Assembly: GCA_027485675.1 (NCBI GenBank)
Contig: JAIXQP010000018.1
Coordinates: 62,001 to 126,000, forward strand
From: Terriglobales bacterium
GTDB lineage: Bacteria > Acidobacteriota > Terriglobia > Bryobacterales > Bryobacteraceae
Direction: 5' to 3'
Length of the DNA stretch: 64,000 nt
Below the pieces are notes generated by a model. The model saw only the letters and a list, made by a program, of their open reading frames with translations, was not told the origin of the DNA and searched no databases. Below, in pieces: positions 3,234-58,280 of this stretch. How positions within the stretch are numbered: position 1 is the first letter of the stretch; each line of letters starts with the position of its first letter. The position numbers were made by a program, and so were the translations under genes.

Positions 3234-4523
3234 GTGCGGAAGCCGTTTTTCTTGTTCGTCTTTGCTGCCCGGGTCCTCGCGGATCCGGGCAGTGCTGTCT
3301 GTGCCCCCTGCCACGCGGAGATTGTCGAACGCTTTTCGCATTCCCGCATGGCCCGGACCGCGGCGATGGAATCGCCCGGAAACTGGTCGCTTGGTTCCGG
3401 CAAGATCGGCAAAAGTTATGTGGCCTTTGTCGGCGAGTTCCTCGTTCAGTCCCCCCGCTCTTACTTCACCGCCACGAAATCCTACGGCCTCTCCCCCGGC
3501 TTCCCCAACGCCCAAACCTTCCGGCCCGTCGAAGAGCCCTGCCTCCAGTGCCACGCTACCGGCGTGAAGCTCGTCAAGGGAGCCCAGAACCGCTATCCGA
3601 ATCCGCCCTTCGCCGAACCCGGCATCTCCTGCGAACGCTGCCATGGCCCCGCCGCGCACCACTCCGTCAACCCCGCGAAACTCCCGCCCGAACGCCGCGA
3701 CAACGTCTGCGAACAGTGCCACCTCACCGGCGCCGCCAAGGTCACCCGCGCCGCCAAAAATCCCTACGACTATAAACCCGGCGACCGCTTGGGCGACTTC
3801 GTCTCCATCTTCGTCAACGGCGCGAAGAACAACGCCACCGACCACGCCGAACAACTCGCCGAAAGCGCCTGCAAGCAAGGCGCCGGCGACAAGCTCTGGT
3901 GCGTCACCTGCCACGACCCGCACGGCGGGCTGAAAGCCAATACCTGCCAGGGTTGCCACACTCCGGACAAGTGCAACCGCGGCCCCAACTGCGCCAGTTG
4001 CCACATGCCGAAAACGGATAGCAAGGACGCCCACGTGGCCTTCACCAACCATCGCATCGGTCGCAAGCCGCCGCCCCCGCGCCCGCTGCGCCTATTCTGG
4101 GACGCGCCGATCCCGCCCCGCGACCTCGCCCTAGCCCAGCCTTCGATTCCCCGCCTCGAACGCGTCGAGCCGAAGGACGCCGCCGTACTCACCCAGCTCG
4201 GCCAGCTTTACGACCAAGCCGGCCGCGCCGCCGACGCCGTCCGCGTTTATCGCGAAGCGCTCCGCCTGAACCCGGAGGAACCCACCGCCGCCGCCAACCT
4301 CGCCATCTACGAAGCGCAACGCGGCGACACCGCCTCCGCCGAGGCCCGCTGGAAGTCGGTCTTCGCCCGCTACCCCGGACTGCCTGGCCCGGGGCTGAAT
4401 CTCGCGGCTGCCCAGGCGCAGCGCGGCGACCGCAAAGCGGCCATCGAGACCCTGCGCCGCCTCCTCCAATTTCATCCCGGCCACACCCAAGCCAAGGAGA
4501 TTCTCAACCGCCTCACCCGCTAG
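3234..4523 (+). CDS. Secreted seven-haem c-type cytochrome with C-terminal TPR repeats
   Basis: 429 residues. An N-terminal signal peptide (MRKPFFLFVFAARVLA) is followed by seven CxxCH haem c motifs at about residues 23, 103, 133, 159, 223, 238 and 253, so the protein should be exported and loaded with haem in the periplasm. The spacing resembles the cytochrome c-554/multihaem family. From about residue 310 to the end there are about three TPR-like units (for example AVLTQLGQLYDQAGRAADAV), probably for protein contacts. The start is a GTG placed directly after the TAG of the TonB receptor, with no room for an independent ribosome site, so translation is probably coupled. The electron donor and acceptor are unknown; no terminal oxidase or reductase is nearby. 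Confidence 0.88.
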   Translation: MRKPFFLFVFAARVLADPGSAVCAPCHAEIVERFSHSRMARTAAMESPGNWSLGSGKIGKSYVAFVGEFLVQSPRSYFTATKSYGLSPGFPNAQTFRPVEEPCLQCHATGVKLVKGAQNRYPNPPFAEPGISCERCHGPAAHHSVNPAKLPPERRDNVCEQCHLTGAAKVTRAAKNPYDYKPGDRLGDFVSIFVNGAKNNATDHAEQLAESACKQGAGDKLWCVTCHDPHGGLKANTCQGCHTPDKCNRGPNCASCHMPKTDSKDAHVAFTNHRIGRKPPPPRPLRLFWDAPIPPRDLALAQPSIPRLERVEPKDAAVLTQLGQLYDQAGRAADAVRVYREALRLNPEEPTAAANLAIYEAQRGDTASAEARWKSVFARYPGLPGPGLNLAAAQAQRGDRKAAIETLRRLLQFHPGHTQAKEILNRLTR

Positions 4524-6792: not shown

Positions 6793-7296
6793 CTATGGGG
6801 TGCGCACCAGTTCGAGGGGCGCACCCTCTACGGGTCCTGCCGATAACCCGACGTCGAGTTTCACGTCAATGTTCTTGCAAATCGAAGGCGTGCAAGCCTG
6901 CCCCTTCACCCCCACCTTGCCCACCGCCCCTTCCCGCTTCACCGGCGCGACGAATACGGCCTCGGCCTCATATCCCCAAGTGAAGATCCGCAGCTCCGGC
7001 TTCGAGAAATCCGTGGGTGGCGTCTGCTTCCACGGCCCCGTCACCGTCAATCCCTCGCCCACCGTCACTTTCGTGGGCATGTCGGCACTCAGCGCCTTCT
7101 TGCCTTTCAAGGCCTCGACGGCCCGCACCGCGTTGTCCATGGCGAACGTTTTCCAGCCTTTACCCAACCGCACCCGCACCACGAGTTGATCGCCCGCCAA
7201 GCGCGCGTCATAGGTCGCGCACACCTCGTCGTCCACGCGCACCTCCACCGGCGCACCCCATCCCGTCGCCAACAACACCAGGCTCAGCAGTTTCAT
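6793..7296 (-). CDS. DsbD alpha-domain-like periplasmic protein
   Basis: 167 residues with a short signal peptide (MKLLSLVLLATGWGAPV). The body is an immunoglobulin-like beta domain resembling the N-terminal (alpha) domain of the thiol:disulfide transporter DsbD: the segment GQACTPSICKNIDVKL near residue 130 matches the family position of the redox cysteine pair, here CTPSIC. DsbD-alpha domains pass electrons between a membrane hub and periplasmic thiol proteins. There is no membrane domain here, so the protein would need a partner. Its ATG overlaps the TGA of the upstream Trx7/PDZ gene by four bases (ATGA), strong evidence that the two are translated together and may act in the same thiol pathway. 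Confidence 0.75.
   Translation of the reverse strand: MKLLSLVLLATGWGAPVEVRVDDEVCATYDARLAGDQLVVRVRLGKGWKTFAMDNAVRAVEALKGKKALSADMPTKVTVGEGLTVTGPWKQTPPTDFSKPELRIFTWGYEAEAVFVAPVKREGAVGKVGVKGQACTPSICKNIDVKLDVGLSAGPVEGAPLELVRTP
6798..6826. terminator. Candidate terminator hairpin after DUF2202 gene
   Basis: A perfect 8-bp GC-rich inverted repeat (GGGTGCGC / GCGCACCC) with a 13-nt loop starts ten bases after the DUF2202 stop codon. It lies inside the 3' coding end of the converging DsbD-like gene and has no T tract, so it may be chance; it is listed as the only terminator-like structure between these convergent genes. Confidence 0.3.
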
Positions 7297-8507
7297 TTTC
7301 TAAAGCTCATTTGAATCGTCTTGAGCGGCATCTCGATCTTCTTCCCGCCGCGCAGTACCTCCAGCATCGCCGAATCGCCGGGCATTTTGCGCAGGATCAA
7401 AAACAGCGAAGCCGTATGCGCATCCGGGTCCACGCGTTTGCCGTCGATCGCCGTAATCACATCGCCCTCTTGCAACGCATGCAGCTCCATCGTCCGCGCG
7501 GTGCTCGACACGTACTTCACCATGCTGGCGAATCCCTCAGCCGGCAGCCCCATCGTCTGCTTCTCCGCCGCCGTCAGCGGCCGGTCATCGAAGTAGAACC
7601 GCGGCTCCACGCTCGATTGGCGGAACTTCGTCTCGCTCCACCACCAACGCGGCGGCAGCGCCATCGTCACGTCCACCATCTTGCCGGCCCGCTCCACGGT
7701 CAGCTTCGCTTCCTTCGCCGTGCGGGGCGTCTGGTTGTAACGATGCTGCACGTCGGCAAACGTCCACACATCCGTCCCTTCCCACTTGGCGATCCGATCG
7801 CCGGGCTGCAAGCCGGCCGCCGCCGCCGCGCCGGTGGCCTCTTTCAACACCAACCCCTTCGGAACATCGAGAAGGATTCCCACCGCCTTCAAATCCGGCG
7901 ACCGGAACAGGTGCACGAGCTTATCGAGCGTGCCATCCTGCTGCCGGTGCAGGTTCTGGTAGTCGCCAATCAGATGGCACTCCACGCACTGGTTCCGCGC
8001 AAAGGTCCGCTCCACCAACAGCGGCTAGTTCTTCGGAAAATCGGGCTTTGGCCGCGGCGGCGCCGACGGCCGGTTGGCATGCAACTCCAAACCCTTCGCC
8101 GCGGCCAGCGTCAGGCTTTCGAGATTCAAGTACGTATCCGGCGAAGCGTTGTCCCGGCCGCCGTACCGCATGTAGATCTGCTCATCGGCGTTCAGGATAT
8201 AGAAGTAGATCGTGTTGTTCCGGTCGTGTTCGAACAGACCAATGTCGATATTGTCCATGCGGATAATGCGCACGGTGACGTACTGCCGCAGCAGTTTGCC
8301 CAGGGGCGAATCTTTCGGTGACAGCACAACCTGTGCGTCAAATGTTCTGCCGTTCGTTCAAGGCTCGCAGCGGAATTCGAGGAAGATCGGCTTGCCCGTC
8401 GCCTTGGCGGTCTTCACCGCTTCCGCATAGTTATCGAGCCACACGATATCATCATCCTGATCCATGGCCATTGCGGCCAAACCGAGAATCAGCAGCAAAA
8501 CCCGCAT
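7293..8507 (-). CDS. Trx7/PDZ-domain selenoprotein candidate (in-frame TGA and TAG)
   Basis: One frame from the ATG at 8507 to the stop at 7293 (404 residues) is interrupted by TGA at codon 50 and TAG at codon 161, yet protein homology continues across both. Order: signal peptide (MRVLLLILGLAAMAM), thioredoxin-7-like domain (KPIFLEFRCEP-U-TNGRTFDAQVVLSPKD, then YVTVRIIRMDNIDIGLFEHD), a CVECH motif at about residue 174, and two PDZ domains (about 205-270 and 310-400). The TGA sits exactly where the second Cys of CxxC would be (CEPU), and a SECIS-like hairpin follows; I recall Trx7/PDZ (seleno)proteins of this architecture from acidobacteria. The TAG has no such explanation: nonsense mutation, sequence error, or a split gene whose second part starts at TTG 8018. 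An ATG at 8519 is an alternative start. It is coupled to the DsbD-like gene. Confidence 0.72.
8025..8027 (-). other. In-frame TAG within the Trx7/PDZ gene
   Basis: Amber codon between PKPDFPKN and PLLVERTFARNQCVECH in one uninterrupted frame. As I recall the family, the Trx7 and CxxCH-PDZ parts form one protein, so this stop looks secondary. No recoding signal is evident around it. Two possible downstream restarts exist at TTG 8018 and GTG 8015, with only a weak purine stretch upstream. Confidence 0.6.
8319..8340 (-). promoter_or_regulatory. Bacterial SECIS-like stem-loop after the TGA
   Basis: Starting 17 nt after the TGA: lower stem TGAC/GTCA, a single bulged T on the 3' side, upper stem GCACA/TGTGC, apical loop GGT. 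The loop begins with GG about 26 nt after TGA, within the usual window for bacterial SECIS elements, which also need a G in the first loop positions. E. coli fdhF has a similar bulged-U hairpin with a GGU-containing loop, though there the bulge is on the 5' side. Confidence 0.65.
8358..8360 (-). other. In-frame TGA, probable selenocysteine codon (CEPU)
   Basis: The codon follows Cys-Glu-Pro, giving C-x-x-U, the selenium form of a thioredoxin CxxC redox motif. Upstream (GKPIFLEFR) and downstream (TNGRTFDAQ) residues in the same frame belong to the same Trx7 fold. selA, selB, selC and selD are not in this window, so whether the host can make selenocysteine is unknown from here. Confidence 0.7.
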
Positions 8508-14725: not shown

Positions 14726-15454
14726 TCAAAGAAGGCCCAGGTGGGCCTGCACTCGCACAAGGTCTTCCGGGGTATCCACCCCCAGGGATTCATACTGCGT
14801 TTCGGCTACATGAATGGCGAACCCATTCTCGAGAGCCCGCAACTGCTCCAGCCGTTCGGCCTGCTCCAGCGGACCCACCGGAAGGTCCGAGTATTCGAGC
14901 AGAAATTCGCGGCGGTAGACATAGAGCCCGATGTGCTTAAAGTAGGTCACGGCGCCGCCCCGGTTAAAAGGAATGGGGCTGCGCGAAAAGTAGATTGCCA
15001 ATCCGCGATGATCCGTTACAACTTTTACGACATTCGGATTGGTGATTTCGTCCAGCCGGTCGATCTTCCGCTTCAAGGTCGCCATCTGCGCGTGGGGCTG
15101 GTCGAGCAGGCCCTGTACGGCCAGGTCAATCGCGGCGGGATCGATCAGCGGCTCGTCCCCTTGAATGTTCACGACAATTTCGTGGGCATGGTTCCCGGCG
15201 ACTTCGGCGACGCGGTCGGTACCGGAAAGGTGCGTGGGCAGGGTCATTTGGACCGGAGCCCCAAAAGCGCGGCTGGCGGCGACGATGGCATCGTCGTCGG
15301 TGGCGATCAAAACCTGATCGAGGGATTTGCAGAGGCAGGCGCGTTCATAAACGTGCTGCAGCATCGGCTTGCCGTCCAGAGGGACGAGGGGTTTCCCTGG
15401 AAACCGAGTAGAAGCCAGGCGCGCCGGAATAATTCCTAAAACTCTGGCGGGCAC
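14726..15454 (-). CDS. kdsB: 3-deoxy-manno-octulosonate cytidylyltransferase (CMP-Kdo synthetase)
   Basis: 242 residues from a GTG at 15454, matching the usual KdsB length; longer in-frame extensions would run into the divergent gene. It activates Kdo with CTP. Motifs: VLGIIPARLASTRFPGKPL at the N terminus, MLQHVYERA, VLIATDD, MTLPTHLSGTDRVAEVA, EIVVNIQGDEPLIDP near residue 93 and YFKHIGLYVYRREFL near 180. No good Shine-Dalgarno precedes the GTG. It is the first gene of the kdsB-pyrG-kdsA unit, so its product consumes the CTP made by its neighbour and the Kdo made via kdsA. Confidence 0.95.
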   Translation of the reverse strand: MPARVLGIIPARLASTRFPGKPLVPLDGKPMLQHVYERACLCKSLDQVLIATDDDAIVAASRAFGAPVQMTLPTHLSGTDRVAEVAGNHAHEIVVNIQGDEPLIDPAAIDLAVQGLLDQPHAQMATLKRKIDRLDEITNPNVVKVVTDHRGLAIYFSRSPIPFNRGGAVTYFKHIGLYVYRREFLLEYSDLPVGPLEQAERLEQLRALENGFAIHVAETQYESLGVDTPEDLVRVQAHLGLL

Positions 15455-58061: not shown

Positions 58062-58113
58062 GGTAGACCTATATTGTATCGGCGCGGTCGTGTACGCTAA
58101 AAGAGAAGCCCCA

Positions 58114-58280
58114 CGACGGGAGAGACTGGGTTCCGCCCAGCGCCGAAGGAGCAACCGCCCCGGAAACTCTCAGGCAGAAGGACCGTCGATCGGGGTCGCA
58201 CTCTGGAAAGTGGCCGCGGAGAGCGAAGTCTCTCCAAGAAGCCCGCCGACGGGATAACGTTCTCAGGCGAACCGACAGAG
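58114..58280 (+). promoter_or_regulatory. Tandem glycine riboswitch upstream of gcvP
   Basis: Two aptamers of the gcvT type. Aptamer 1 (58114-58188): P1 CGACGG/CCGTCG, GAGAG/CTCTC stem, GCGCCGAAGGAGCAA core and GAAACTCTCAGGCAGAAGGAC. Aptamer 2 (58201-58280): P1 CTCTG/CAGAG, TCTGGAAAG, GCCGACGGGATAACG core and TTCTCAGGCGAACC. The linker is 12 nt. Binding of glycine normally turns on expression of the glycine cleavage system, which matches the downstream gene. Confidence 0.95.

Follow-up and report, generated by a model that had tools for sequence, protein, structure and literature searches.

At this locus the question is whether the TGA at codon 50 of a gene for a thioredoxin and PDZ domain protein is read as selenocysteine (Sec), and what the resulting protein might then do. 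The gene lies on the minus strand of the 64,000-nucleotide stretch of DNA that was analysed, referred to here as the window, with its ATG at 8507 and its terminal stop at 7293-7295 (Table 1), and is split in the program-made list of open reading frames. An in-frame TGA stands at the place of the second Cys of a CxxC motif, as the preliminary description had it, the local context being FLEFRCEP-TGA-TNGRTFDAQVVL, and when stops flanked on either side by 50 open codons were scanned for codon usage, this TGA (8360) took rank 1 for coding signal on both sides. Ranks 2 and 3 of the same scan fall to TGAs at window positions 14728 (minus strand) and 43496 (plus strand), where both flanks are again coding-like. 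The homology had been described as unbroken on both sides of the TGA; the alignment does continue across it, but the same frame is interrupted further on by a TAG. That second stop was overlooked at the time, as was the fact that the family had already been catalogued, although the Sec interpretation itself is supported.

Table 1. Positions of the features of the selenoprotein gene and its neighbour in the window
Feature	Position	Strand	Details and basis
Trx7/PDZ selenoprotein gene	7293..8507	-	404 codons + stop; TGA = codon 50, TAG = codon 161; translation
Hydrophobic N terminus, codons 1-15, signal-peptide-like	8463..8507	-	sequence
Thioredoxin_7 domain, codons 23-81	8265..8441	-	Pfam PF13899, 27.4 bits vs cut-off 27
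Putative redox motif Cys-Glu-Pro-Sec, codons 47-50	8358..8369	-	CEP-TGA
Predicted Sec codon TGA, codon 50	8358..8360	-	homologue comparison
Predicted SECIS hairpin	8319..8340	-	lower stem 8337-8340/8319-8322; upper stem 8332-8336/8324-8328; loop GGU 8329-8331; bulged U 8323
Invariant His143, candidate second haem ligand	8079..8081	-	85/85
Extra in-frame stop TAG, codon 161	8025..8027	-	translation; before CxxCH + PDZ part
Cys-Val-Glu-Cys-His, codons 174-178, CxxCH; candidate c-type haem site or second dithiol	7974..7988	-	85/85 Cys174, Glu176, Cys177, His178
First PDZ match, codons 226-253	7749..7832	-	Pfam PF00595
Second PDZ match, codons 345-395	7323..7475	-	Pfam PF13180
Partner gene, DsbD-alpha-like, 167 aa, C135-x4-C140	6793..7296	-	Pfam DsbD_N PF11412, 19.1 bits vs cut-off 25

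Evidence that the TGA is a Sec codon comes in the first place from its column among homologues. The gene is present in 63 of the 257 genomes of the order, the window's own counted, and codon 50 is TGA in every one of the 63. A search of the genome collection found 103 relatives, 80 of which were kept, and in these named-record homologues the column holds TGA in 77 and Cys in three, the Cys forms being L170 and L172 (records named Verrucomicrobiales) and L175 (Akkermansiaceae). Relatives also occur in records named Planctomycetota, Hydrogenedentota and Thermoanaerobaculia, with the caution that metagenome bins can carry incorrect names. The closest named record is a Candidatus Sulfopaludibacter bin at 94%, which makes the host most probably an acidobacterium from the Bryobacteraceae; the nearest relatives are 93-94% identical. 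The order set and the named-record set overlap, and their 143 rows reduce to 85 distinct 120-nt stretches, 82 with TGA and 3 with Cys at codon 50, while Cys47 is kept in all 85. The aligned homologues therefore carry Sec or Cys at this column, and it is by such an exchange that a bacterial selenoprotein gene is recognised.

The hairpin downstream of the TGA is less telling when taken from the single sequence. It begins 17 nt past the TGA and had been correctly placed and described, with a loop starting in GG, a bulge and two stems: a lower stem of 4 pairs (UGAC with GUCA) and an upper stem of 5 (GCACA with UGUGC) enclose the loop GGU, and the bulged U lies on the 3' side of the stem. Published limits for bacterial SECIS elements, in the accessible text of PMC13188914, are a loop of 3-9 nt, an upper stem of 4-16 bp, a G in the first two loop bases, a UGA-to-loop distance of 16-37 nt and an energy of -7.5 kcal/mol or lower. 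The GGU loop, the 5 bp stem and a UGA-to-loop distance of 26 nt all lie inside these bounds, as does the energy when the bulge is allowed (-9.4 kcal/mol over 24 nt); without the bulge the energy is -3.9 and misses the -7.5 kcal/mol that 127 of the 1506 window TGAs reach under the same rule. The published limits also admit 128 of 500 random window TGAs, and 81 of the 500 equal or beat the TGA of codon 50. Folding of the 64-nt stretch is no better than that of its shuffles (z -0.34), and for the 24-nt hairpin core z is -2.45, with 4 of 200 shuffles equally good. Given how often random TGAs match it, the hairpin was rejected as a stand-alone proof of Sec: alone it is near chance, and it is conservation among homologues that settles the Sec reading. 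An Rfam scan of the window at gathering thresholds gave a single match, a glycine riboswitch at 58107-58195 (66.7 bits).

Seen across relatives the hairpin has a different standing, and to judge from codon choice and base pairing it is selected as RNA. Ala58 is encoded by GCA in 80 of 81 sequences, against a background of 309 GCA among 2734 Ala codons in the same genes, and when 103 conserved columns are ordered by the skew of their silent choices Ala58, Val60, Val61 and Leu62 take ranks 1, 2, 5 and 6, ranks 3 and 4 going to Arg54 and Ser131 outside the hairpin. The three Cys genes are without the hairpin codon string. For pair tallies the 82 Sec sequences were reduced to 71 distinct 51-mers, and four upper-stem pairs form in all 71; L161 has G-C in place of A-U at one pair and L171, from Roseibacillus persicicus, has A-U in place of G-C at another, with an amino-acid change each time. 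The lower stem is looser, two of its pairs forming in only 53 of the 71 and its closing pair being U-A in 39, C-G in 12, U-G in 2, C-A in 2 and some other unpaired combination in 16. Covariation was counted in 38 sequences chosen from the distinct set, where four pairs have both sides changed, a count that neither any slid version nor any of 500 shuffles equals, and where the number of further pair types is equalled by 28 of 500 shuffles; these counts and the codon tallies alike are of related, non-independent sequences. RNAalifold alone retains just the four core pairs, and its covariation term is -0.15. In the distant relatives L159, L160, L161, L163, L171 and L174 the foot of the hairpin differs, and in several of these, by eye, the bulged U has given way to a nucleotide that lengthens the stem and leaves no bulge. 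A 13-nt element, GCACAGGUUGUGC, is kept across phyla, and its paired changes cost amino acids; nearly frozen as it is, it amounts to a clear natural experiment on SelB recognition.

A Sec codon calls for the machinery to read it, and a search of the window's genome found selA (391.9 bits), selB (380 bits), selC as a tRNA-Sec(UCA) (70.1 bits) and selD (356.5 bits). Of the two outcomes named beforehand as refuting the Sec reading, a host lacking selA-selD and homologues lacking both Cys and Sec at the column, neither was observed. The host selD (L025:1441-2412) is itself of the Sec type, with a TGA in GUASK and so a UxxK context, one that the accessible text of PMC13188914 lists for selenophosphate synthetase. 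In the host selA sits on another contig than the selenoprotein gene (C15 against C33). All 63 carriers in the order have at least one of selA, selB and tRNA-Sec, and 59 have selA; among those without it G150 and G225 have selB, and G099 and G214, without selB, have a tRNA-Sec above cut-off, all four being drafts that are 73 to 91% complete. With selA called at an E of at most 1e-60, 59 of 63 carriers have it against 147 of 194 non-carriers (Fisher p 0.0017, kinship ignored). The idea that the Sec machinery is a strict companion of the selenoprotein gene was nevertheless rejected, selA being frequent in non-carriers too; as it occurs in 206 of the 257 genomes of the order, its link to the gene is a loose one. 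A closer association is seen in one family of the order (f3), in which selA positions are complete for all 14 carriers and 12 of them have selA on the same strand, no more than 1 kb away, with 62 to 936 nt between the two in 10 contexts. In a set of 14 distant carriers, selB exceeds its cut-off for 10 of the 11 Sec hosts and for two of the three Cys hosts; in the Sec host G259 (2.9 Mb) the selB matches are weaker than the cut-off, and the tRNA-Sec scores 46.6 bits where 47 is required. On these comparisons of sequence, insertion of Sec in the Trx7/PDZ family is as good as certain.

The family is already catalogued, as the NCBIfam equivalog NF041199, "Trx7/PDZ domain-containing (seleno)protein". 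Its model matches the window protein over residues 22-396 and through both stops at 417.6 bits (cut-off 300), the separate halves giving 187.1 and 218.9 bits, below that cut-off, and it matches 47 of the 47 relatives scanned; the CxxU (or CxxC) motif expected of a member is present as CEP-TGA. The match is thus nearly full-length, at equivalog level and with the same CxxU, and the window copy differs by the TAG at codon 161. In the accessible text of the 2026 review PMC13188914, Table 1 contains the Trx7/PDZ family (NF041199, CxxU) with reference 61, Zhang and Gladyshev 2008. In the accessible text of PMC9312934 the same paper, there reference 64, stands beside an entry that combines Thioredoxin_7 and CxxU under the name "PDZ domain-containing protein". 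The paper is the GOS marine survey (PMC2398784, accessible text), where a "putative secreted serine protease MucD" is given a CxxU motif and a predicted SECIS and is represented by 2 Sec and 12 Cys sequences; a MucD with CxxC/U fused to a PDZ domain is mentioned in the part of PMC9402790 available. From the shared CxxU, the Trx7/PDZ row is probably this GOS entry; if so the family was described in 2008, and in the text available it still stands among the predicted selenoproteins. The window protein resembles the GOS "MucD", as far as its accessible description goes, in CxxU, predicted SECIS and Cys homologues, and differs in that the name implies a protease whereas the window protein holds only thioredoxin and PDZ domains; a protease reading was rejected, as Pfam finds no protease domain.

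What the protein does is suggested by its parts and its neighbour. The PDZ domains that had been proposed are there, as two Pfam matches, behind the thioredoxin domain, and the hydrophobic N terminus suggests that the product is exported. AlphaFold2 models were made not from the window copy but from a 94% identical relative, L099, which is open save for its Sec codon (Sec entered as Cys); mean pLDDT is 91.8 for the full model and 85.7 for the N-terminal part alone. Against the PDB, the whole model comes closest to DegP/DegQ and RseP entries, which fits its PDZ part, and Foldseek matches the N-terminal model to thioredoxin folds, AGR2, AGR3, DsbH-type proteins and DsbD gamma among them. The DsbD gamma matches, which include the DsbD alpha-gamma complex 1vrs, come at rank 20 and lower (E 0.005 to 0.011), with AGR2, AGR3 and the DsbH-type proteins ranking higher. 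Structure alignments comprised 47 sequences, L169 being omitted because of a TAG of its own. Among the tallied columns Arg46, Cys47, Phe56, Asp57, Val60, His143, Cys174, Glu176, Cys177, His178 and Asp182 are invariant in 85 of 85, and the cis-Pro position, placed by eye, seems to be Asn98 in 78 of 85, which is unusual for a thioredoxin.

A second gene follows directly, its ATG overlapping the stop of the selenoprotein gene (ATGA). The DsbD-alpha-like partner of the preliminary description does exist as a gene, but its DsbD_N match stays below the Pfam cut-off, for which reason the protein is called no more than DsbD-alpha-like. Of 81 neighbourhoods, 78 contain a relative of the partner (clustering gave 64 and a profile 14 more), within 400 nt in 61 of the 65 in the clustered set. 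Each of the partner's two Cys columns holds Cys in 59 of 65 sequences. In two of the three neighbourhoods without a partner the contig ends 470 or 5 nt past the gene, and the third, L161, has full flanks with no match. The arrangement recalls E. coli DsbD in that a thioredoxin fold adjoins a DsbD_N-like protein with a Cys pair; unlike DsbD it is split over two genes, has Sec for the second Cys, adds a PDZ tandem and a CxxCH, and shows no membrane domain by Pfam.

Overall the locus is best read as encoding a SECIS-directed selenoprotein of the known Trx7/PDZ family that is exported and takes part with its partner in a DsbD-gamma-like thiol relay, a reading to which a probability of roughly 0.8 is given; for the relay with the DsbD-alpha-like partner, judged separately, the balance tilts modestly in favour. 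By a mechanism established for selenoprotein genes of this kind, SelB on the GGU-loop hairpin would deliver Sec-tRNA(UCA), codon 50 being read as selenocysteine, and the product, going by its N terminus, would be exported. The exposed Cys47 may then attack a disulfide of a client or of the partner (C135/C140), and Sec50 would resolve the mixed disulfide as a selenenylsulfide, while the two PDZ domains may hold clients or partner and the invariant CxECH may serve as a second redox site, dithiol or haem. Export, the Cys47/Sec50 relay, electron exchange with the partner and the holding of clients by PDZ domains are each what the anatomy of the protein would suggest.

The window copy itself is a special case. 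A functional full-length member has an open frame apart from its Sec codon, and this one has the TAG at codon 161, so that as assembled it cannot give the full protein and would yield the Sec-thioredoxin part alone, unless the TAG is an assembly error; relatives do carry intact copies. It could be that the copy is decaying, in which case the TAG is a genuine mutation and the organism has ceased to make the full protein; the chances of this are put a little short of even. None of the 62 other homologues of the order or the 80 named-record ones has a stop at this column, a sense codon standing there instead, and no tRNA with a CUA anticodon is found among the 41 of 42 host tRNA matches that ARAGORN read; set against decay, nothing else about the copy looks damaged, from the TGA and hairpin through the sequence on either side of the TAG to the downstream frame and the partner gene, identity to the nearest relatives is 93-94%, one wrong base in the assembly would look identical, and a lone TAG occurs elsewhere in L169, so that such events or errors recur. 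In that Thermoanaerobaculia-named relative the TAG is in frame at the codon 184 column, besides its TGA. Amber suppression of the window TAG was rejected on the same 41 tRNAs, the 42nd match (30.5 bits) being uncalled by ARAGORN; the tRNA list may be incomplete, since no tRNA-Ile(GAU) is among those read.

The CxxCH of the C-terminal part admits another view of the chemistry, in which the selenoprotein carries one covalent c-type haem at CVECH, with His178 and perhaps His143 as axial ligands, and electrons pass between the Sec-Cys pair and a cytochrome chain, not just between that pair and dithiols; this is held tentatively, as the lesser option. CxECH is conserved as strictly as Cys-x-x-Sec, and Cys174, Cys177, His178 and His143 are invariant in all 85 sequences, the three Cys forms included. 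The selenoprotein looks exported, the host has three above-cut-off matches to the cytochrome c assembly family PF01578, the CxxCH falls at the start of a predicted helix (177-191) in the model, and MamP, a protein with PDZ and c-type haem, is among the weak NCBIfam matches. That match comes through PDZ only: the likeness to MamP and other magnetochrome proteins lies in the pairing of PDZ with CxxCH (PMC3971196, accessible text), and the window protein differs in its Sec thioredoxin domain. Against a haem, Pfam has no family that the 80-aa segment of L099 matches, the Foldseek results are mainly thioredoxin folds with no cytochrome c among the 50 matches listed, and an extra conserved Cys pair could equally be a thiol site, a role that the accessible text of PMC9402790 presumes for extra Cys of such fusions. 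A cytochrome fold for the CxxCH segment, with no support from Pfam and none among the Foldseek matches listed, was accordingly kept as a rival only. Haem in the Trx7/PDZ family goes without mention in the accessible text of PMC2398784 and PMC13188914 and among the literature matches listed; Sec together with haem is not unheard of, since PMC13188914, in the same accessible part, lists other selenoproteins with c-type haem motifs. At 3234-4523, some 4 kb from the selenoprotein gene, lies an exported-looking protein with several CxxCH, by eye a multihaem cytochrome. Rather unlikely is the fuller version, an exported seleno-haemoprotein in which a Cys-x-x-Sec thioredoxin, a c-type haem (CVECH, His143) and two PDZ domains would, with the DsbD-alpha-like partner, pass electrons between envelope thiols and a cytochrome chain. 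If true it would be a direct relay from thiol or selenol to haem, conserved across records that bear the names Acidobacteria, Planctomycetota, Verrucomicrobiales and Hydrogenedentota.

It is highly improbable that the TGA acts as a normal stop codon or specifies some other residue, Cys or Trp for instance: the window copy does have two stops in one frame, but TGA and Cys exchange at a single column across phyla, the hosts have Sec machinery, and the hairpin is frozen and covarying.

With the Sec reading sound, the TGA of codon 50 is not to be annotated as the end of the gene, and the TAG of the window copy is a caution that, beyond a true Sec codon, a further stop may go unnoticed. As far as the accessible literature and the matches listed go, what is new here is the conservation at RNA level across phyla, together with the selA neighbourhood, the presence of a partner gene, the invariant CxECH and His143, and a copy that is interrupted. 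The partner gene, CxECH with His143 and the adjacency of selA in the one family of the order provide concrete handles on the function of the Trx7/PDZ family.
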